A stretch of DNA of 64,000 nucleotides. It comes from Nocardioides cavernaquae (GTDB lineage: Bacteria > Actinomycetota > Actinomycetes > Propionibacteriales > Nocardioidaceae). The notes under the pieces are model-generated. The model had not been told where the DNA came from and searched no databases. It saw only the letters and a program-made list of their open reading frames with translations. How positions within the stretch are numbered: position 1 is the first letter of the stretch; every line of letters starts with the position of its first letter. The stretch is from assembly GCF_003600895.1 (NCBI RefSeq), contig NZ_QYRP01000002.1, positions 2,480,001 through 2,544,000 on the forward strand, read 5' to 3'. The translations under genes were made by a program, and so were the position numbers. Below, in pieces: positions 28,265 to 39,167 of the stretch.

Positions 28265-29407
28265 TCAGACCTCCGCGAGGAACGCGTCGAGGTGCTTCCA
28301 GGCCCGGTCGCGAGCATCGACGCCGGCGACGAGGCCGAGGTGCGAGAGGCCGTCAGCCGCGGCGTACCGGGCGCCGGGGACCGAGCGGGTGCCGGCCTCG
28401 ACCGCAGGGCCGTTGGCGATCGCGTCGGTGCGGCTGCCGACGAACAGGACGCGGGTGCGGATCGCGGAGAGGCGTACGGCGCGGGAGCGGGTCAGGTTGA
28501 TGACGCCGCTGAAGAGCTCGTTCTTGGTGACCAGCCGGGTGTGCAGCTGGTTGTAGAAGCGGCCCGGGTAGCCCGGCATGCTGGCGATGAACTGGTCGAT
28601 CGCCTCCGTGCGGGCGAGCACCTCGGTGTCGAGGATGTTGCGCGCGAGGAACCACGGCTTCGTGATCTCGCGAACCGGTGCCATCGCCCGGAAGCTGGCT
28701 CGGGTGAGGTGGCGCGGCACGCCGCCCATGAGCGCGGTGCCAGCGGTCATCAGGGTGCTGCCGAGCACGCGGTCGGCGTAGCGCAGCAGCTGCACTGCGG
28801 GGATGAGGCGGTAGTCGATCGGCGTGCCGAAGGCGGTGATCGAGGCGATCGGCAGCGTCGGGTGGGCCGCTGCGGTGAGCAGGCTGACCGTGCCACCGAG
28901 TGACCACGCGACGACGTCCACCGGCGCTCCGTCGTGCAGCGCGGAGACGCGCGCGATCGCGGTCGGGAGGATGTCGTCGATCCAGTCCTCGAAGCCCATG
29001 TTGCGGTCAGCGAAGGTGATGTCGCCGTAGTCGACCACGTAGGTCTCGTGGCCCTGCTCGAGCAGGTGCTCGGCGAGGCTCTGGCCCGGACGCAGGTCGT
29101 AGCAGTTGGTGGCGACGGCCAGTGGCGGGACCAGGAGCACCGGCCGGGCCGTGGTGGCCGGGGTGCTGCGCAGGTAGCGGCGCAGCTGGCGGTGCGGCTC
29201 GTCGTGCAGGACCTCCGCGGGGAGGCCGTCGTACTTCTCGATGCCCTCGCCGAACGGCGAGATGGCCCATGCGTTGCGCGCGGCCGCGGCAATCGTGGTC
29301 AGCCGGCTCGGCGCCGCGGAAACGGGGACGAGAGCAGCGCTGGAGGCGCCCGAGGGAACGACGTCTGTCGTCGCGGCAACCTCGGTGGGCGTCGTCATGG
29401 AAGGCAT
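28265..29407 (-). CDS. Alpha/beta hydrolase, PhaC-like
   Basis: About 380 aa resembling the catalytic domain of polyhydroxyalkanoate synthases: RPVLLVPPLAVATNCYDLRPGQSLAEHLLEQGHETYVVDYGD and FEDWIDDILPTAI are PhaC-type. The nucleophile elbow, however, is AWSLGGT with Ser instead of the Cys of true synthases. Asp in VGSRTDAIA and His in GLSHLGLV complete the triad. A lipase/esterase or depolymerase-like role is likelier than polymerisation. ATG 29407 is preceded by GAGGA; ATG 29398 and TTG 29437 are alternatives. Sits beside the TetR/desaturase lipid locus. Confidence 0.8.
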   Translation of the reverse strand: MPSMTTPTEVAATTDVVPSGASSAALVPVSAAPSRLTTIAAAARNAWAISPFGEGIEKYDGLPAEVLHDEPHRQLRRYLRSTPATTARPVLLVPPLAVATNCYDLRPGQSLAEHLLEQGHETYVVDYGDITFADRNMGFEDWIDDILPTAIARVSALHDGAPVDVVAWSLGGTVSLLTAAAHPTLPIASITAFGTPIDYRLIPAVQLLRYADRVLGSTLMTAGTALMGGVPRHLTRASFRAMAPVREITKPWFLARNILDTEVLARTEAIDQFIASMPGYPGRFYNQLHTRLVTKNELFSGVINLTRSRAVRLSAIRTRVLFVGSRTDAIANGPAVEAGTRSVPGARYAAADGLSHLGLVAGVDARDRAWKHLDAFLAEV

Positions 29408-29465
29408 GGTCCTCAGGGTGGGGTCGGTTTCGGGCAAAGTCCATCAAAGGTGATGGGAATGACGC

Positions 29466-30116
29466 TCAGCGGGAGGAGTCCCAGCGCAGCGCGCCGATCA
29501 GCACCATGTGGAGCTGGCGACGGGCCCTCGCCGCGATCTGGCGCACCTCGTCGGTGCGTCCGCCTGCGCGGGCGAGCTCCTCGGCCTGCGCGAGCATCGC
29601 GTTGACGATCAGGTCCGCCAGGACGAGCAGGTCCTCCGATGACCAGCGGGTCACGCCGGGCACCCGGCCGATGTCAGCGGCCAGCTCGCTCTCGACGAGC
29701 TGGAGCTGGTGACGGACCGCGTCGCGGATGACCGTCGGGCCGGCGATGCGCTCGCGCGAGATGAAGCGCAGGTGCCGGTCGCTGTGGCGCGCGTGTGTCA
29801 CGAGGGCCTCGAGCGACCTGTCGACGACGGCCAGGAAGAGCTCCCGGTCATCGGCGATCGGACCGCGGACCTCACGCGCGTCGCGCAGCATCGCGCGGAG
29901 CGCGTCGAAGGACTCCTCGACCAGGGTCAGGCCCAGCTCCTCGATGCCGGCGAAGTGCCGGTAGAAGGCGGTCGGCACGATGCCGATCTCCTTGGCGATC
30001 TGGCGCAGTGAGATCGCGGCCAGTCCGCCCTCCTCGGCGAGCGAGAGCGCCGCATCGAGGATCGCACGACGGGTGCGCTCCTTCTGCTCGGTGCGGGACA
30101 CCCCTGGGCTCGACAT
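29466..30116 (-). CDS. TetR-family repressor of the desaturase operon
   Basis: 216 aa. N-terminal helix-turn-helix (RTRRAILDAALSLAEEGGLAAISLRQIAKEIGIVPTAFYRHFAGIEELG) and a ligand-binding C-terminal domain with RERIAGPTVIRDAVRHQLQLVESEL. Divergent from the ferredoxin reductase-desaturase genes. The intergenic region holds three related palindromes; one overlaps its own promoter (TACACT seven bases before the ATG), so autorepression is expected. By analogy with DesT/FasR-like regulators the ligand may be an acyl-CoA (inference). Confidence 0.88.
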   Translation of the reverse strand: MSSPGVSRTEQKERTRRAILDAALSLAEEGGLAAISLRQIAKEIGIVPTAFYRHFAGIEELGLTLVEESFDALRAMLRDAREVRGPIADDRELFLAVVDRSLEALVTHARHSDRHLRFISRERIAGPTVIRDAVRHQLQLVESELAADIGRVPGVTRWSSEDLLVLADLIVNAMLAQAEELARAGGRTDEVRQIAARARRQLHMVLIGALRWDSSR

Positions 30117-30123
30117 GGCACCC

Positions 30124-30152
30124 AGTGTACCCAGAGTGAACACTTGTTCACT
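30124..30152 (-). promoter_or_regulatory. tetR promoter with operator O1
   Basis: TACACT (-10 on the minus strand, 30129-30124) lies seven bases before the tetR ATG. Immediately upstream is AGTGAACACTTGTTCACT (30135-30152), a perfect 8-bp inverted repeat with a 2-base centre covering the spacer and -35 region: the geometry of an autorepressing TetR operator. Confidence 0.7.
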
Positions 30153-30180: not shown

Positions 30181-30250
30181 TTGACCGGCCCTCACGCGGC
30201 CGGTCATAGTTTCAGTGCACGATCGTTCACCGAGAGAACGGCCGTTCACC
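30181..30250 (+). promoter_or_regulatory. Desaturase-operon promoter with operators O2 and O3
   Basis: TTGACC (-35, 30181-30186), 18-base spacer and CATAGT (-10, 30205-30210). O2 at 30214-30231 (AGTGCACGATCGTTCACC) matches O1 at 13 of 18 positions, and O3 at 30233-30250 (AGAGAACGGCCGTTCACC) at 12 of 18; they sit 19 bp apart, on and just downstream of the predicted transcription start, ideal for repression. Confidence 0.65.
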
Positions 30251-30268: not shown

Positions 30269-31342
30269 ATGAGCCTCGCAACGACCATCCTCCGGTCCCG
30301 AGCCGTCTCTGCCCTGACCTCCCCGCACGGCGTCGACCGCTACCTCGAGCTGGTGAACCCCATGTGGGCCGCCAACGAGGTCCGCGCCCGCCTGGTGGAC
30401 ATCGACCTTGAGGTCGACGTCCCGGGTGCCGCCCGCGTCGCCACGCTCACGTTCCAGCCCACCAGCACCTGGCGCGGCCACCGCGCCGGTCAGTACGTCC
30501 AGCTGGGCGTCGAGCTGCCGGGTGGTCGCCGCACCACGCGCTGCTTCACCGTCTCGAGCCCCGACTCCAAGCCGGGCGACCGGTTCACGGTCACCATGCG
30601 GGCCAACCCCGACGGCCAGGTCTCCCAGCACCTGGTCGAGCACGCCAAGCGGGGCACGATCGTCCACCTCTCGCAGGCCGAGGGCGACTTCGTCCTGCCG
30701 GACCACGTGCCCGACCACATCCTCTTCATCACCGGTGGCTCCGGCATCACCCCCGCCATGTCGATGCTGCGCAGCCTGCAGCGCCGCACGCACCGCGGCC
30801 GGATCACCTTCCTGCACTACGCCCAGTCCGAGGACCACCAGATCTTCAAGGACGAGCTCGCCGAGATCTCCCAGCAGGGCTACGGCATCGACCTGCACCT
30901 GGTCTACCCCGAGGCCGGCGGTCGCAACTTCTCCCCGATGGAGCTGGAGCGCATCGTTCCCGGCTTCCGCGACGTGGACACCTGGCTCTGTGGCCCGGCC
31001 GGTCTCGTCAACGCCGTCACCCCGGCGTACGAGGGCTCGGACAAGCTCCGGGTCGAGTACTTCAAGCCGCCGACGTTCAGCGGAGTTGCCGGTGGCGAGG
31101 TCAGCTTCGCGAAGTCCGGCGTCGCTGCCGAGAACTCTGGCGACAACATCCTCGAGCAGGCCGAGGCCGCGGGTCTGGCCCCTGCCTTCGGCTGCCGCAT
31201 GGGCATCTGCTTCGGCTGTGTCGCGATCAAGAAGGAGGGCACCGTCCGCAACGTGCTGACCGGTGAGACCTCCTCCCTCCCCGACGAACAAATCCGCATC
31301 TGTGTGAGCACGCCTGAGGGCGACTGCTCCGTGGAACTCTGA
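30269..31342 (+). CDS. Ferredoxin-NADP reductase-like electron donor with [2Fe-2S] domain
   Basis: 357 aa. FAD domain (RAGQYVQLGVELPGGRRTTRCFTVSS), NAD(P) domain (FITGGSGITPAMSMLRSL, CGPAGLV) and a C-terminal plant-type ferredoxin domain with Cys309, Cys314, Cys317 and Cys345 (C-x4-C-x2-C-x27-C). It shuttles electrons from NAD(P)H to the acyl desaturase encoded next, as the homologous pair Rv3230c-DesA3 does in mycobacteria. AAGGAGG precedes the ATG by four bases. Likely repressed by the divergent TetR protein. Confidence 0.92.
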   Translation: MSLATTILRSRAVSALTSPHGVDRYLELVNPMWAANEVRARLVDIDLEVDVPGAARVATLTFQPTSTWRGHRAGQYVQLGVELPGGRRTTRCFTVSSPDSKPGDRFTVTMRANPDGQVSQHLVEHAKRGTIVHLSQAEGDFVLPDHVPDHILFITGGSGITPAMSMLRSLQRRTHRGRITFLHYAQSEDHQIFKDELAEISQQGYGIDLHLVYPEAGGRNFSPMELERIVPGFRDVDTWLCGPAGLVNAVTPAYEGSDKLRVEYFKPPTFSGVAGGEVSFAKSGVAAENSGDNILEQAEAAGLAPAFGCRMGICFGCVAIKKEGTVRNVLTGETSSLPDEQIRICVSTPEGDCSVEL

Positions 31343-31353
31343 AAGGAACTGAC

Positions 31354-32520
31354 ATGACTGTCACCCTGGACGCACCCGAGACGACTCCGGTCAAGCCCGC
31401 CAAGGGCCACAACGCCAGCAAGATCCCGCTCACGCCCGAGCAGCTCGACGCCTTCGGTGCCGAGATGGACGCGATCCGCCAGCGGACCGTCGCCAAGCTC
31501 GGCGACGAGGACGCGGCGTACATCCGCAAGATCGTGAAGTGGCAGCGCGGCCTCGAGGTCGCGGGCCGTGTGGGCTTCTACGTCCCGCCGCTGTGGCCCG
31601 CCGCCGTCGCCTCGCTCGGCGTCTCCAAGATCCTCGACAACATGGAGATCGGGCACAACGTCATGCACGGCCAGTACGACTGGATGGGCGACCCCGGTCT
31701 GAACTCCCGCGTCTTCGACTGGGACACGATGGCCCCGGCCGAGAACTGGAAGCACGGCCACAACTACGTGCACCACACGTACACCAACATCGTGGGCAAG
31801 GACCGCGACGTGGGCTACGGCATCCTGCGCATGGACCCGGACCAGAAGTGGCACCCGTACTACCTCGGCAACACGATCTACGCGTTCCTGCTGATGGTCT
31901 TCTTCGAGTGGGGCGTCATGGCGCACGACCTGGAGGCCGAAGAGGTCTTCGCCGGTCGTCGCAGCATGTTCCGCGGCGAGAACGCCCCGGTCTGGCGCAA
32001 GATCCGCAAGAAGGTCAGCAAGCAGGTCCTCAAGGACTACGTCGTGTTCCCGCTGCTGACCGGCCCGTTCTTCCTGACCACGCTGGCCGGCAACGCGATC
32101 GCCAACCTGATCCGCAACGTCTGGACCTTCAGCATCATCTTCTGCGGCCACTTCCCGGCCGGCGTCGCGTCGTTCTCCATCGAGGAGTGCGAGGACGAGT
32201 CCCGCGGCCACTGGTACTACCGCCAGCTGCTCGGCTCGGCCAACATCACCGGCGGCAAGCTCTTCCACGTGATGAGCGGCAACCTGTCGCACCAGATCGA
32301 GCACCACCTGTTCCCGGACGTCCCGGCCCGCCGGTACCCGGAGATGGCAGTCGAGGTCCGCGAGGTCTGCAACCGCTACGGCCTGCAGTACAACCAGGGC
32401 TCGCTCTTCAAGCAGCTGGCCACGGTCTACGGCAAGATCTTCCGCCTCAGCTTCCCGAACCGCACCAAGAAGGCCGACGTCGCCGCCACCTCGGTGGCAC
32501 AGCAGGCGGTGGCGGCATGA
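31354..32520 (+). CDS. Membrane acyl-CoA/fatty acid desaturase (DesA3-like)
   Basis: 388 aa. Three histidine boxes bind the di-iron centre: HNVMH at 101-105, HGHNYVHH at 134-141 and HQIEHH at 313-318. Hydrophobic segments (PLWPAAVASLGVS, YAFLLMVFFEWGVMAH, LLTGPFFLTTLAGNAIANLI) anchor it in the membrane. It most likely introduces a delta-9 double bond into C16/C18 acyl chains, adjusting membrane fluidity, using electrons from the upstream reductase. Eleven bases after that gene, and its stop overlaps the start of the cyclic-nucleotide-binding protein. Confidence 0.93.
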   Translation: MTVTLDAPETTPVKPAKGHNASKIPLTPEQLDAFGAEMDAIRQRTVAKLGDEDAAYIRKIVKWQRGLEVAGRVGFYVPPLWPAAVASLGVSKILDNMEIGHNVMHGQYDWMGDPGLNSRVFDWDTMAPAENWKHGHNYVHHTYTNIVGKDRDVGYGILRMDPDQKWHPYYLGNTIYAFLLMVFFEWGVMAHDLEAEEVFAGRRSMFRGENAPVWRKIRKKVSKQVLKDYVVFPLLTGPFFLTTLAGNAIANLIRNVWTFSIIFCGHFPAGVASFSIEECEDESRGHWYYRQLLGSANITGGKLFHVMSGNLSHQIEHHLFPDVPARRYPEMAVEVREVCNRYGLQYNQGSLFKQLATVYGKIFRLSFPNRTKKADVAATSVAQQAVAA

Positions 32521-32912
32521 GCCCGGACCAGGTGGTCCAGAGCCTCGCTCGCCTGAACACGTTCTGCGACGCCAGCGAGACCGAGCTACGCACGATCGCC
32601 GAGGCCGGAAGCATCGTGACGGTGCCGCAGGGCTGGTCGCTGATCTGGGAGAAGACGGGCGCCGACAAGGCCTACGTCGTCCTCGCCGGGGACCTCGACG
32701 TACGCCGTGGCAAGGAGGTCGTCGGGCACCTCACCGCTGGCGACGTCGTCGGTGAGGTCGCGATCGTCCGCCGCCGCCTGCGCACCGCAACGGTCGTCGC
32801 CGCCACGCCCCTCGAGGTCCTGCACTTCACCCGCGAGGCCGTCGAGCGCCTGTACGCCGAGGTGCCTGCCTTCCGCGCCAGCCTCGACCGTGCCGTCATC
32901 GAGCACGCCTGA
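32517..32912 (+). CDS. Stand-alone cyclic nucleotide-binding domain protein
   Basis: 131 aa, essentially one Crp-like beta-roll (about 12-120) with no DNA-binding or enzymatic domain. The phosphate-binding cassette GDVVGEVAIVRRRLRTATV keeps the key Glu80 and Arg89-Thr90-Ala91, so cAMP or cGMP binding is plausible. The ATG overlaps the desaturase stop (ATGA), implying stoichiometric co-production. It may regulate the desaturase or its reductase post-translationally; this is inference, no such complex is known to me. Confidence 0.85.
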   Translation: MSPDQVVQSLARLNTFCDASETELRTIAEAGSIVTVPQGWSLIWEKTGADKAYVVLAGDLDVRRGKEVVGHLTAGDVVGEVAIVRRRLRTATVVAATPLEVLHFTREAVERLYAEVPAFRASLDRAVIEHA

Positions 32913-32974
32913 GCCCGTGGCTTGAGACTGGCCTCACGTTGCCCGATCACTCTCAGGACAGGACACTGGATTCC

Positions 32975-33202
32975 ATGACCGAGAAGTTGAGCAAGTCCGA
33001 GATCCGCAAGGACCAGATCCAGGACTCGGTGGAGGCCGCCACCCATGCTGTCGGCCAGGTCTCCAACGTGGTGATCGGCGCCGTCGGCGACGTGGTCAAG
33101 GCCGTTGGCGGTTTCGCCACCGACCTCTTCGAGATCCGCGAGGCTGCGAAGAACGCCCGCAAGGACCAAGGCGTGGAGGATGGCTCGGACGACGAGGACT
33201 GA
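32975..33202 (+). CDS. Small helical protein, unknown
   Basis: 75 aa. A charged N terminus (MTEKLSKSEIRKDQIQDSVEAA) leads into an amphipathic glycine/valine-rich segment (VGQVSNVVIGAVGDVVKAVGGFATDLFEI) and an acidic tail (GVEDGSDDED). No family recognised. It lies 62 bases after the cNMP-binding protein and before a clear terminator, so it closes the desaturase transcription unit. ATG chosen over an upstream TTG because the intervening residues look like leader. Confidence 0.65.
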   Translation: MTEKLSKSEIRKDQIQDSVEAATHAVGQVSNVVIGAVGDVVKAVGGFATDLFEIREAAKNARKDQGVEDGSDDED

Positions 33203-33924: not shown

Positions 33925-36900
33925 TCAGGAGAACGCGCGGCCGAGGAGCTCTGCGTTCTCGACCTGGTGGCGCTTCGCCGTGCCCACCGCGGTGGTCGAC
34001 GACGACGGACGCGTGATCGGCTGGACCGGACGGCCGAGCTCGTGCACCACGTTCAGCACGTACGACGGCCACGGGCCCTGGTTGAACGGCTCGTCCTGGA
34101 CCCACTTGACGGTGGCGTCGGGGTACTTGGCCAGCTCGGCCTTGATCTCCTCGATCGGCCAGGGGTAGAGCTGCTCGACCCGGACGATCGCGACGTCCTC
34201 CCGCGCGAGCTTCTTGCGCTCCACGACGAGGTCCCAGGTGAGGCGACCGGACACGAGCAGGACCGTCTTGACCTTGGCGGCGTCCACCGAGTCGTCACCG
34301 ATGACCGGCAGGAACGTGCCGTTGGTGAAGTCGGCCGGCTGGGAGGCGGCCTCCTTGCGCTTGAGCATCGACTTCGGGGTGAAGACGATCAGCGGCTTGT
34401 GCTCGCCGCCGAGCGAGTGGCGACGGAGCAGGTGGAAGTGCGACGCCGGGGTTGACGGCTGGGCAACGACCATGGCCTCGTCGGCACAGAGCGTGAGGAA
34501 CCGCTCGATGCGCGCGGAGGAGTGGTCGGCGCCCTGGCCCTCGTAGCCGTGCGGCAGCAGCATCACGACACCGGAGTCCTGACCCCACTTGGTCTTGCCC
34601 GCGGAGATGTACTCGTCGATGACCGACTGCGCGCCGTTGACGAAGTCTCCGAACTGGGCCTCCCACAGGACGAGAGCGTCCGGGCGGGCGACCGAGTAGC
34701 CGTACTCGAAGCCGAGCGCGGCGTACTCCGAGAGCAGCGAGTCGTAGCAGAAGAACTTCGCCTGGTCCTCGGTGAGGTTGGACAGCGGGGTCCACTCGTC
34801 GGCGTTGTGGCGGTCGATGATCGTCGCGAAGCGCTGCACGAACGTGCCACGACGCGAGTCCTGGCCGGCCAGGCGGACCGGACGGCCCTCCATGAGCAGC
34901 GAGCCGAAGGCGAGGATCTCGCCCGTGCCCCAGTCGATCGGGCCGTCGGTGATCGCTGCGGCGCGACGCTGGAGCTGCGGCATGACCTTCGGGTGGACCG
35001 TGAAGCCCTCCGGCGGGGTGATGTAGGCGTCGGAGATCCGCTTGAGCACCTCGGAGGTGACTGCCGTGGTGGTCACGCCGGCGAGCTTCTCCGGGTAGTC
35101 CGGGACGGTCGTCCACTCGTCGGGCTTGGCGTCGGCGTCGCGCACGTCGGTGAAGACCCGCTCGAGCTGCGCCTGGTACTGGCGGAGGACCTCCTCGGCC
35201 TCCTCGATCGTGATGTCGCCACGACCGATGAGCGACTCGGTGTAGAGCTTGCGCACCGAGCGCTTCTGCTCGATGAGGTCATACATCAGCGGCTGCGTGT
35301 ACGACGGGTCGTCGCCCTCGTTGTGACCGCGACGGCGGTAGCAGACGAGGTCGATGACGACGTCCTTGTTGAACGCCTGGCGGTACTCGAACGCGAGCCG
35401 GGCGACCCGGATACAGGCCTCGGGGTCATCGCCGTTCACGTGGAAGATCGGCGCCTGAACCATGCGGGCGACGTCGGTGCAGTAGAGCGACGAGCGCGAG
35501 GAACCGGGGGAGGTGGTGAAGCCGACCTGGTTGTTGATGACCAGGTGGATCGTGCCGCCCGTGCGGTAACCACGCAGCTGCGAGAGGTTGAGCGTCTCTG
35601 CGACGACACCCTGGCCGGCGAAGGCCGCGTCACCGTGGAGGAGGAGCGGCAGCACCGGGAACTCGTTGCCGCGGTCGAGCACGTCCTGCTTCGCGCGGGC
35701 GATGCCGGTGAGCACCGGGTCGACGGTCTCGAGGTGCGAGGGGTTCGCCGCGACGGAGACCTTGATCTTGTCGCCGCTGCCGGCGACGAACTCGCCGTCC
35801 GCGCCGAGGTGGTACTTCACGTCGCCCGAGCCCTGGACCGTGCGCGGGTCGATGTTGCCCTCGAACTCGCGGAAGATCTGGGTGTAGGACTTGCCGACGA
35901 TGTTGGCCAGCACGTTGAGGCGGCCACGGTGGGCCATGCCGATCGCGACCTCGTCGAGGCCGGCCTGGGCGGCTGCCTCGCAGATCTCGTCGACGACGGG
36001 GACCGTGGTCTCGCCGCCCTCGAGGGAGAAGCGCTTCTGACCGACGAACTTGGTCTGCAGGAAGGTCTCGAAGGCCTCGGCCTGGTTGAGCTTCTGCAGG
36101 ATCCGGAGCTGCTCCTCGCGGGACTCCTTGTCGTAGGGCTTCTCGACGCGCTCCTGGATCCAGCGGCGCTGCTCGGGATCCATGATGTGCATGTACTCGA
36201 TGCCGGTGGTGCGGCAGTAGGAGTCACGCAGGATGCCGAGGATGCCGCGGAGCTTCATGAAGCGGCCGGAGCCACCGAACGAGCCGGTCGCGAACTCGCG
36301 GTCGAGGTCCCACAGCGTGAGGCCGTGCTGCTCGATCTCGAGGTCGGGGTGGCTGCGCTGCTTGTACTCGAGCGGGTCGGTGTCCGCCATCAGGTGGCCA
36401 CGCACGCGGTAGGCGTGGATCAGCTCGAGGATGCGGGCCGGCTTCGAGATCTGGTCGTCGTGCGACGTCGCGATGTCGTTGGCCCAGCGGATCGGCTGGT
36501 AGGGGATGCGCAGCGAGCGGAAGATCTCGTCGTAGAAGCCGTCCTCGCCGAGGAGCAGCTGGTGCACGCGACGCAGGAACTCGCCGGACTGCGCGCCCTG
36601 GATGACGCGGTGGTCGTAGGTCGAGGTCATGGTCATGATCCGCGAGACCGCGTTGCGGGTCAGGGTCTCCTCGGAGGCACCCTGGAACTCCGGCGGGTAG
36701 TCCATGGAGCCGACGCCGACGATGGCAGCCTGGCCCTGCATGAGGCGCGGGACCGAGTTGTTGGTGCCGAGGCCACCGACGTTGGTCAGCGAGACCGTGG
36801 TGCCGGCGTAGTCGTCCATGCCGAGCTTGTTGTTCTTGGCCTTGCGGACGATCTCCTCGTACGCCGTCCAGAAGCCGGCGAAGTCCATCGACTCGCAGCC

Positions 36901-37611
36901 CTTGATGGACGGGGCCACCAGCTGGCGGGTGCCGTCAGCCTTCTGCTGGTCGATGGCGAGGCCCAGGTTGATGTGGGCCGGCGTGACCATGGTCGGCTTG
37001 CCGTCGACCACGGCGTACGTGTTGTTGTACTCGGGGTTGGCCTTGATGGCCTTGATGATCGCGTAGCCGATGAGGTGCGTGAACGACACCTTGCCGCCGC
37101 GTGCGCGCTTGAGGTGGTTGTTGATGACCGTGCGGTTGTCCCACAGCAGCTTCACCGGGATGTTGCGGACCGACGTGGCCGTCGGCACCGCCAGCGAGAT
37201 GTCCATGTTCTTCGCGGTCGCGAGCGGGATGCCCTTGAGCGGCGCGTAGGTGGGGTCGTCCTTGGTCGTGACCGGAGCCGTCGGCTTCGGGTCACGCGGC
37301 GCAGGGGAGGTGGTGCCCTTGGCCGGCTCGGCGGCCTTGGTGTTGTCCGGCCGCGGCTTGGCGACCGGGATCGGCGCCGTCACCGGCGCGGCGGCGGGGG
37401 CCGCTGCAGCGGGGGCGGCCGGGGCCGCGGCGGCGGCCGTGACAGCAGCCGCTGCGGGCGTGCCGTTCGTCCCGTTTCGTCCGGCGAAATAAGCAGCCCA
37501 CTCGGCTCCGACACTCGCCGGATCCTTCTGGTACTGCTCGAACATCTCGTCGACGAGCCACTCGTTGGCTCCGAAGTCGGAGGTGGGGTTCTGCTGCGAA
37601 GATTCAGCCAC
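33925..37611 (-). CDS. kgd: Multifunctional 2-oxoglutarate decarboxylase/dehydrogenase E1-E2 (Kgd)
   Basis: 1228 aa, matching mycobacterial Kgd (about 1230). A short N-terminal E1 segment (SDFGANEWLVDEMFEQYQKDP) and Ala/Pro linker precede an E2 acyltransferase domain with catalytic His334 in YDHRVIQGA, then the E1 thiamine-diphosphate domain (HRGRLNVLANI, GDAAFAGQGVVAETLNLSQL, HVNGDDPEA, MLLPHGYEGQGADHSSAR). It lacks a lipoyl domain and works with a pyruvate/2-oxoglutarate supercomplex; GarA/FHA proteins inhibit the family. GTG 37611 gives the usual SQQNPTSDFG start; ATG 37680 would add 23 residues. Confidence 0.94.
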   Translation of the reverse strand: MAESSQQNPTSDFGANEWLVDEMFEQYQKDPASVGAEWAAYFAGRNGTNGTPAAAAVTAAAAAPAAPAAAAPAAAPVTAPIPVAKPRPDNTKAAEPAKGTTSPAPRDPKPTAPVTTKDDPTYAPLKGIPLATAKNMDISLAVPTATSVRNIPVKLLWDNRTVINNHLKRARGGKVSFTHLIGYAIIKAIKANPEYNNTYAVVDGKPTMVTPAHINLGLAIDQQKADGTRQLVAPSIKGCESMDFAGFWTAYEEIVRKAKNNKLGMDDYAGTTVSLTNVGGLGTNNSVPRLMQGQAAIVGVGSMDYPPEFQGASEETLTRNAVSRIMTMTSTYDHRVIQGAQSGEFLRRVHQLLLGEDGFYDEIFRSLRIPYQPIRWANDIATSHDDQISKPARILELIHAYRVRGHLMADTDPLEYKQRSHPDLEIEQHGLTLWDLDREFATGSFGGSGRFMKLRGILGILRDSYCRTTGIEYMHIMDPEQRRWIQERVEKPYDKESREEQLRILQKLNQAEAFETFLQTKFVGQKRFSLEGGETTVPVVDEICEAAAQAGLDEVAIGMAHRGRLNVLANIVGKSYTQIFREFEGNIDPRTVQGSGDVKYHLGADGEFVAGSGDKIKVSVAANPSHLETVDPVLTGIARAKQDVLDRGNEFPVLPLLLHGDAAFAGQGVVAETLNLSQLRGYRTGGTIHLVINNQVGFTTSPGSSRSSLYCTDVARMVQAPIFHVNGDDPEACIRVARLAFEYRQAFNKDVVIDLVCYRRRGHNEGDDPSYTQPLMYDLIEQKRSVRKLYTESLIGRGDITIEEAEEVLRQYQAQLERVFTDVRDADAKPDEWTTVPDYPEKLAGVTTTAVTSEVLKRISDAYITPPEGFTVHPKVMPQLQRRAAAITDGPIDWGTGEILAFGSLLMEGRPVRLAGQDSRRGTFVQRFATIIDRHNADEWTPLSNLTEDQAKFFCYDSLLSEYAALGFEYGYSVARPDALVLWEAQFGDFVNGAQSVIDEYISAGKTKWGQDSGVVMLLPHGYEGQGADHSSARIERFLTLCADEAMVVAQPSTPASHFHLLRRHSLGGEHKPLIVFTPKSMLKRKEAASQPADFTNGTFLPVIGDDSVDAAKVKTVLLVSGRLTWDLVVERKKLAREDVAIVRVEQLYPWPIEEIKAELAKYPDATVKWVQDEPFNQGPWPSYVLNVVHELGRPVQPITRPSSSTTAVGTAKRHQVENAELLGRAFS

Positions 37612-37754
37612 GGCTTGAATCGCCTCTTCCGGTGCGGCTACTGCTGGTGAGAACAACACGCCAAGGCTAGACCCACCCATGGGGAAATGTGGCAGGTGGG
37701 ACCACCTATCGGGCAGGGTGAACGAAGACCCGACCCGGAGGGGAGCGCAACCTG

Positions 37755-39167
37755 ATGCGCACTCGCTTGAAAGTCCATCCAAACCTCACAATTTCACAGT
37801 CCGGCCCGCAGCCCGGCCCGCAGCCCGGCCGCCGGCTCGTCCCGCTGCTCCTGTCGACGGTCCTCGTCGCCGGTTGCAGCAGCTCCGAGCCGTCGTCAGA
37901 CAAGCCCGAACCAGAGACTGGTACGCCGAGCAGCGCCGCGCCGCGCGCAGCGATCGGCGCCGGGGTGACGGTCGGCCGGGTTGCTCCACCGGCGCGGGCT
38001 GCCGCGGTCAAGTCAGTGGGCGCGGTGGTCCAGCGCTGGGTGGACGCGGCGTACCTCACGCCGTCCGGTGACGTCGCCGCGGCGTTCCCCGGGTTCACGC
38101 CCGGGGCGGCAGAGCTCGCCGCCCGCGACCGGGGAGTCACGACGTTCGGCGGCACAGCCGATGCCGAGCTGGTCCCCGATGCCTCGTCGATCAAGGTCGA
38201 CCTGCTCGGCACGGAGGGCAAGGCCCGAGGAGCGACCGCTCGTGTAGCGCTGACCCTGGACCCCGAGGGGGAGGACAAGGGAGCGACGAAGATCTCGGGC
38301 CGGCTGACGCTGGTCCCCGAGGGACCCGGCTGGCGGATCTTCGGCTACGAGCTCCAGCGTCAGTCACCCGACACCCGGAGCCGCCGGGTGATGGCGGGCG
38401 ACGTCGGCAAGGAGACGGTCTGGATCCTTGCGGTCGGCTCGGACGCCCGTCGCGGGCAGCCGGTCCTGCGCAGCCGCGGGGACGCCATCCAGATGGTCGG
38501 CCTCAACACACGAACCGGTGCGGCGACGACGATCGGCGTGCCGCGCGACTCCTGGGTGTCGATCCCCGGCTACGGCTCCAACCGGATCAACGCCGCCCTC
38601 TACTTCGGCGGGCCGAAGGCGATGGGCCGCACCGTCGGCAACCTCGTCGGGGTCCAGCCCGACCACGTCATCGTCGCCAGCTTCTGGGGGTTGAGCGAGA
38701 CCGTCGACGCGATCGGCAGGATCGTCGTGAACTCGAAGCGCGCGTTCTCCGACCAGTACCTCCAGCCGGGCTTCCGCAAGGGACGCAACCGGATCAACGG
38801 CCCCAGTGCCGTCAACTTCTCGCGGATCCGCAAGTCGCTGCCGGGCGGTGACTTCGACCGGTCGGCCAATCAGCAGGAGACCCTGCGTGCGATCCAGGCC
38901 GCCATTGGCCTCGGCATCGCCAAGCCGGGCTTCCTCGAGACCGGAGCGTTCGCGGCGCACCGCAAGCTGGAGACCGGCATGTCGATCACCGAGGTCTTCC
39001 GGATCGCCCAGGCGGTTGCGTCGATCGACCCGCGCAAGACCAGCGGCTGCGTCGTGCAGGGGAGCATCGGCAACGTGAATGGCGCGAGCATCGTGTTTCC
39101 GAACACAGCGGCTGCGCGGCGCTACGGCGATGACGCCCGCAAGGACGCCCAGATCAAGAGGTGCTGA
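37755..39167 (+). CDS. LCP (LytR-CpsA-Psr)-family lipoprotein
   Basis: 470 aa. A basic start and hydrophobic stretch end in the lipobox LVAGC with Cys41 as lipid anchor; a Ser/Pro linker follows. Residues about 75-215 look like an NTF2/Mce-like domain, then the LCP catalytic domain: WILAVGSDARRG, GDAIQMVGLNTRTG, IGVPRDSWVSIPGYG, RINAALYFGG, and the Arg-rich VNFSRIRKSLPGGDFDRSANQQETL. LCP enzymes attach polymers such as arabinogalactan or teichoic acid to peptidoglycan. A lipid anchor in place of the usual membrane helix is unusual. AGGGGAG precedes the ATG. Confidence 0.85.
   Translation: MRTRLKVHPNLTISQSGPQPGPQPGRRLVPLLLSTVLVAGCSSSEPSSDKPEPETGTPSSAAPRAAIGAGVTVGRVAPPARAAAVKSVGAVVQRWVDAAYLTPSGDVAAAFPGFTPGAAELAARDRGVTTFGGTADAELVPDASSIKVDLLGTEGKARGATARVALTLDPEGEDKGATKISGRLTLVPEGPGWRIFGYELQRQSPDTRSRRVMAGDVGKETVWILAVGSDARRGQPVLRSRGDAIQMVGLNTRTGAATTIGVPRDSWVSIPGYGSNRINAALYFGGPKAMGRTVGNLVGVQPDHVIVASFWGLSETVDAIGRIVVNSKRAFSDQYLQPGFRKGRNRINGPSAVNFSRIRKSLPGGDFDRSANQQETLRAIQAAIGLGIAKPGFLETGAFAAHRKLETGMSITEVFRIAQAVASIDPRKTSGCVVQGSIGNVNGASIVFPNTAAARRYGDDARKDAQIKRC

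Follow-up and report, generated by a model that had tools for sequence, protein, structure and literature searches.

We analysed a 64,000-nucleotide stretch of the Nocardioides cavernaquae genome (contig NZ_QYRP01000002.1 of assembly GCF_003600895.1, positions 2,480,001 to 2,544,000; hereafter, the window, in whose own numbering coordinates are given) and, within it, one unit of genes encoding, in this order, a reductase, a fatty acid desaturase, a 131-amino-acid (aa) protein with a lone cyclic-nucleotide-binding (CNB) domain, and a 75-aa protein, preceded by a FabR-like TetR gene that is transcribed divergently. A preliminary description of this DNA had named the four genes of the unit, and all of them are present where it placed them. 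We infer that they form one transcript. The features are as follows.

29466..30143, minus strand: TetR-family regulator, FabR/DesT-like, divergent (PF00440; NCBIfam FabR, 106.8 bits)
30136..30151, no strand assigned: operator-like palindrome GTGAACACTTGTTCAC (pattern GTGnACn4GTnCAC)
30215..30230, no strand assigned: second operator-like palindrome GTGCACGATCGTTCAC (same pattern)
30269..31342, plus strand: ferredoxin/flavin-type reductase (PF00970, FAD; PF00175, NAD; PF00111, 2Fe-2S)
31354..32520, plus strand: membrane fatty acid desaturase ending in Val-Ala-Ala (PF00487, 110.9 bits; three His boxes)
32517..32912, plus strand: lone CNB protein, 131 aa (PF00027, 54.3 bits)
32975..33202, plus strand: 75-aa protein of unknown function, a regular companion of the desaturase (present 3' of it in 75 of 78 operons)

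In the Nocardioidaceae, the constant core of this locus consists of the TetR, reductase, desaturase, and 75-aa genes, the CNB gene being an optional insert. Among the 78 operons read, it lies between the desaturase and 75-aa genes in nine, namely, in the window, G060, G078, G099, G209 (N. jensenii), G252 (Nocardioides sp. Root140), G256 (Nocardioides sp. Soil797), G272, and G317 (G and L numbers are our identifiers of genomes and loci, respectively), and its reading frame is intact in all nine carriers. The 78 operons are a non-random sample composed of the carriers found, 60 operons selected mostly by the rank of the desaturase match, and the rest from earlier lists; L022, which duplicates L115, was removed. 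An orthologous desaturase (E 1e-140) was found in 171 out of 341 Nocardioidaceae genomes, with at least nine carriers; this number is a lower bound, as the match lists reach E ~1e-40 for the CNB protein and ~5e-172 for the desaturase. The CNB–desaturase pairing is thus not confined to one genome; such confinement was what the preliminary description had named as grounds for abandoning its reading. Eight further genomes carry the pair, and a one-genome accident was dropped as an explanation. The co-occurrence across actinobacteria, which the same description had proposed to examine, was covered within the order only. In the ~1.4 kb downstream of more distant desaturases (<58% identity; 15 loci, L238–L252), tblastn yielded no CNB match, including in the nine loci that come from two other families, and the few matches to a loose CNB motif in these loci were judged by eye to be other-frame noise. 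Some metagenomic CNB and 75-aa proteins come from contigs of equal length, which hints at further carriers, too weakly for these to be counted.

The 131-aa protein matches the CNB profile and has the CNB fold; PF00027 was the only domain found in it by the Pfam search, which bears out the earlier claim that it has no effector domain. Glu80 and Arg89-Thr90-Ala91 occupy the positions previously assigned to them, and the phosphate-binding cassette (Gly-Glu ... Arg-x-Ala) is complete, with Gly79, Glu80, Arg89, and Ala91 retained in all 80 compared rows (the distant loci L091–L103 left out, and some genomes present twice). Glu80, Arg89, and Ala91 are kept in nine out of nine desaturase-linked and 61 out of 61 cyclase-linked CNB rows. 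The CNB gene starts within the desaturase stop codon, its ATG (32517) overlapping the stop at 32518–32520 as ATGA. This overlap, initially read as translational coupling, is present in the window and fails as a conserved trait, since the distance from the desaturase stop to the CNB start is −4 in the window, −1 in L150, and between 13 and 23 bp in each of the seven remaining carriers; the overlap was dropped as a conserved coupling device, being present in two out of nine carriers only.

Lone CNB proteins of this family are mostly encoded next to adenylate cyclases: a CNB gene precedes a class III adenylate cyclase gene in 54 out of 67 loci. The second lone CNB gene of the window genome (G000:C2:1811934-1813383; L002, L107) lies directly ahead of a gene for an Rv1264-like adenylate cyclase, one base apart if the earliest start codon is taken. 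We know of no description of this CNB–cyclase pairing, for which little dedicated literature search was made. PF00211 was found in all 22 cyclases encoded 3' of lone CNBs, and PF16701 (Ad_Cy_reg) in 15 of them at E 0.001; the profile of the 22-cyclase alignment matches Rv1264 over both domains (1y10, E 9e-42) and the regulatory domain alone (2ev1, presumably the oleate-bound Rv1264 structure; E 6e-5). The cyclase of the window genome scores 34.1 with PF16701 (cut-off 28.6); of the five cyclases compared in this way, one other scores 23.2 and three have no match. The regulatory part of the window genome's cyclase, taken alone, had no match in PDB, and the fold of the regulatory part on its own likewise remained unmatched. 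These enzymes resemble the Rv1264/Rv2212-type cyclases in the combination of Ad_Cy_reg with a class III catalytic domain and in matching Rv1264 over both, and differ in that seven out of 22 are without PF16701 at the above threshold. To our knowledge, the M. tuberculosis Rv1264/Rv2212-type enzymes have no lone CNB partner.

Given this pocket and these neighbors, the CNB protein is predicted, with considerable confidence, to bind cyclic AMP (cAMP). Its fold neighbors include domains with bound cyclic GMP (cGMP) and cyclic UMP (cUMP), and position 90 is mostly occupied by Thr or Ser, which can favor cGMP in some CNBs; hence the pocket might bind cGMP, cUMP, or nothing at all. This is unlikely, however, as the Glu–Arg pair is invariant and the family adjoins cyclases matching the adenylate cyclase Rv1264, the nucleotide specificity of these cyclases being itself a prediction.

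Other settings of this family were also observed. Lone CNBs in L053 (50–385), L054 (2875–3231), L072, and L087 adjoin neither a cyclase nor a desaturase, the next genes in L053 and L054 being CoA-ester lyase-like, as judged by eye. In one genus (G078, G053, G084, G104, G110, G113), a single genome may contain as many as six lone-CNB-like genes, a few of which are arranged as tandem pairs. In a deltaproteobacterial metagenome-assembled genome (L093, 6001–6336), a CNB domain and a 2-oxoglutarate-dehydrogenase-like protein share one open frame, again by eye.

Pairwise ratios of nonsynonymous to synonymous substitution rates range from 0.115 to 0.43 within the CNB lineage that unites six carriers, and from 0.41 to 0.53 among the window, G060, and G078; the CNB gene is under purifying selection, of limited strength in the lineage to which the window belongs. 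In the tree of the desaturase plus the reductase, that is, the operon tree (76 rows, eight out of nine carriers; left out were L183 and the G078 locus, L112, the latter because its desaturase match spans two frames), the carriers occupy three places. A single clade of carrier operons was rejected (p 1.5e-6, eight out of nine carriers in the test), and so was a clade of the window and G060 (p 1e-11). The tree of CNB proteins (47 rows) has two carrier groups, the window with G060 and G078 versus the other six, and their union into one group was borderline rejected (p 0.046); when metagenome proteins are included, which makes the tree bigger but lowers its resolution, the carriers again fall in three places. 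As the carriers do not form one operon clade, the CNB gene probably entered the slot at least twice, or else once with very frequent loss; a single insertion with simple inheritance was dropped on the strength of the same test. Repeated entry into one and the same slot favors a functional link between the CNB protein and the desaturase step, which we consider probable.

Our preferred interpretation, to which we assign a probability of roughly 0.42, is that the recruited lone CNB protein gives the desaturase step cAMP control via contact with the desaturase–reductase complex. A desaturase operon of the DesT–desBC or DesA3–Rv3230c kind would have taken up a stand-alone cAMP-binding protein, its source being the Nocardioidaceae family that usually adjoins an Rv1264-like adenylate cyclase. 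Translated from the same transcript as the desaturase, the CNB protein would bind cAMP and then contact the complex, possibly close to the Ala-Ala terminus that the desaturase exposes; the contact would alter the activity or lifetime of the desaturase, much as CNB domains gate the enzymes to which they are fused, but from a separate polypeptide. Considered by itself, a direct interaction with the desaturase or the reductase is a tentative element. The arrangement suggests, without proving, that cAMP may tune membrane fluidity through the CNB protein of the operon. The preliminary description had read the locus in a similar way, and that reading is no more than partly supported, by the cAMP-type pocket, the cyclase-linked family, and the recurrence of the pairing.

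Several observations weigh against cAMP control of the desaturase, and many of them agree with its chief rival, in which the CNB gene is a hitch-hiker: a duplicated cyclase-partner gene would reside in a permissive slot of a well-expressed operon, its product doing its cAMP job elsewhere and the desaturase gene serving as a source of transcription only. The CNB gene is absent from 69 out of 78 orthologous operons, and every one of the nine carriers has at least one further CNB gene of the family. The slot itself may be permissive to insertion: unrelated genes are present in three (L147, L150, L215) out of the 74 slots whose length was measured (L190, L207, and L221 have no 75-aa match, and L183 was unusable). 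In L147 and L150, a gene for a peptidoglycan-binding protein (named by Pfam on the L028 copy of L147, and by clustering for the L150 copy) lies between the CNB and 75-aa genes, in addition to the former, and in L215 another short gene takes the place of the CNB gene. The comparison of desaturase-linked and cyclase-linked CNBs yielded four differing columns at our own threshold, all mild, and no partner-specific surface was seen in it; a desaturase-specific CNB signature was dropped with these four columns only. To these points are added the scarcity of the start–stop overlap among the carriers and the state of the G078 carrier (L112), where the desaturase match is spread over two frames, which may reflect either gene disruption or an error in the sequence. 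Finally, one operon clade uniting the window with the six-genome lineage was only borderline rejected (p 0.041), and therefore the number of entries is unsure. The explanation by hitch-hiking has to accommodate, in turn, the scatter of the carriers over three places of the operon tree and two CNB groups (three in the larger tree), yet with one common slot, and the intactness of all nine CNB frames; we regard it as possible but somewhat doubtful.

The desaturase matches PF00487 and has the three His boxes of membrane desaturases (HNVMH 101, HNYVHH 136, HQIEHH 313); it is predicted to be a delta-9 acyl-CoA enzyme, as assumed from its family. Its sole NCBIfam match, DesB delta-10, scores 31.1 bits, far under the cut-off of 500, and a sequence comparison with PDB chains gave no match. 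The reductase probably supplies electrons to the desaturase. The latter ends in Ala-Ala in 74 out of 77 different orthologues (L183 left out), the tail preceding this end being variable, and the Ala-Ala end is a probable conserved degron or decay signal. In 2008, Chang and Fox reportedly traced the degradation of mycobacterial DesA3 to its LAA terminus. Both the conservation of this end on a variable tail and the DesA3 case are consistent with the CNB protein shielding the Ala-Ala end from, or exposing it to, a Clp-type protease, so that cAMP would set the half-life of the desaturase and not its catalysis. Yet the Ala-Ala end is equally common in operons without the CNB gene, so a degron would not depend on a CNB protein, and binding of the latter to the tail is without structural support, which makes this mechanism quite improbable.

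An opposite-strand TetR match was found upstream of the reductase in 79 out of 79 operon rows (more than 1 kb away in L201 and L211; eight rows cover TetR only in part). The regulator of the window scores below the NCBIfam FabR equivalog cut-off of 151, and hence is related to FabR and not classed as such. Operators of the DesT/FabR systems are palindromic, and GTGnACn4GTnCAC occurs between the TetR and reductase genes in 66 out of 68 operons, nine of the 68 being carriers, versus none of the 68 control stretches of equal length from the reductase genes (11 of the 79 rows, i.e., eight short loci, L183, L201, and L211, were not used). Throughout the window, the only matches to this pattern are the two at 30136 and 30215. 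The divergent TetR gene and the palindromic operator give the locus the layout of a DesT/FabR-type devergon, and the operator-like palindromes are predicted to bind TetR. With the TetR gene and operators adjoining the unit, a CNB protein that has no effector domain might be a local cAMP buffer or act on TetR, affecting transcription instead of the enzyme. This is highly improbable: the operators are equally kept in operons without the CNB gene, and a gene within an enzyme operon would better fit an enzyme partner than a DNA-side role.

In those parts of the published accounts that we consulted, fabR is divergent from desA in Shewanella oneidensis, and desT, from the desB–desC operon in Pseudomonas aeruginosa (PMC4273635, PMC8872791). 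The operon described here is similar in that a FabR-like TetR gene is divergent from the desaturase genes, and differs in that the reductase gene comes first, the regulator is under the FabR equivalog cut-off, and a CNB gene, not mentioned in the consulted parts of these accounts, is present. Like DesA3 (Rv3229c)–Rv3230c of Mycobacterium tuberculosis, it combines a membrane desaturase with an adjacent oxidoreductase, which does not imply orthology of the desaturases. We take DesA3 to have Rv3230c as its partner and an Ala-Ala C-terminus with a degron role, in likeness to the desaturase considered here; we know of no CNB gene at that locus. In the cAMP-gated acetyltransferase Mt-Pat/KATmt (Rv0998), the CNB domain is fused to the effector, whereas here it is a separate protein. 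No published description of a lone CNB within a desaturase operon, or of this pairing, was found in the open-licence literature; the desaturase operon itself is of a known kind, and the stand-alone CNB from a cyclase-coupled family within it appears to be new. Bacterial membrane-fluidity control is known mainly via transcription (DesT, FabR, DesK–DesR) and, in mycobacteria, via protein decay. If our preferred interpretation is true, the action of a second messenger on the enzyme would add a novel level to this control, and related species with and without the CNB gene, their operons being otherwise alike, form a natural comparison for testing it.

A further extension would close a loop from oleate through the cyclase, cAMP, and CNB back to the desaturase. 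Oleic acid is a typical desaturase product. As far as the consulted part of the source goes, it is bound at the regulatory domain of Rv1264 (PMC12505454). In such a loop, oleate made by the desaturase would bind the Rv1264-like cyclase at its regulatory domain, shifting cAMP, which would be read both by the cyclase-adjoining CNB and by its paralogue from the desaturase operon; the latter would dock on the desaturase and thereby determine how active it is or how fast it decays. We consider the complete loop improbable; if it were true, lone CNB proteins would be exchangeable cAMP-sensing subunits plugged into enzymes by gene shuffling.

The 75-aa protein has no family in Pfam and NCBIfam and 51 homologues, most of them nameless; all those whose names include an organism come from Nocardioidaceae. 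It is a possible accessory factor of the desaturase. The preliminary description had not mentioned the TetR gene, its operators, the Ala-Ala terminus of the desaturase, or the second CNB gene with its cyclase elsewhere in the genome. Beyond the TetR gene lies one more feature.

28265..29437, minus strand: PhaC-like alpha/beta hydrolase (TIGR01836, 96.8 bits, under its cut-off)

In some relatives (L167, L169–L172, L174, and L176), its homologue adjoins TetR in the same order. On the other side of the unit, and convergent with it, a large gene on the minus strand (33925–37782) is 2-oxoglutarate dehydrogenase/decarboxylase-like, as named by eye.
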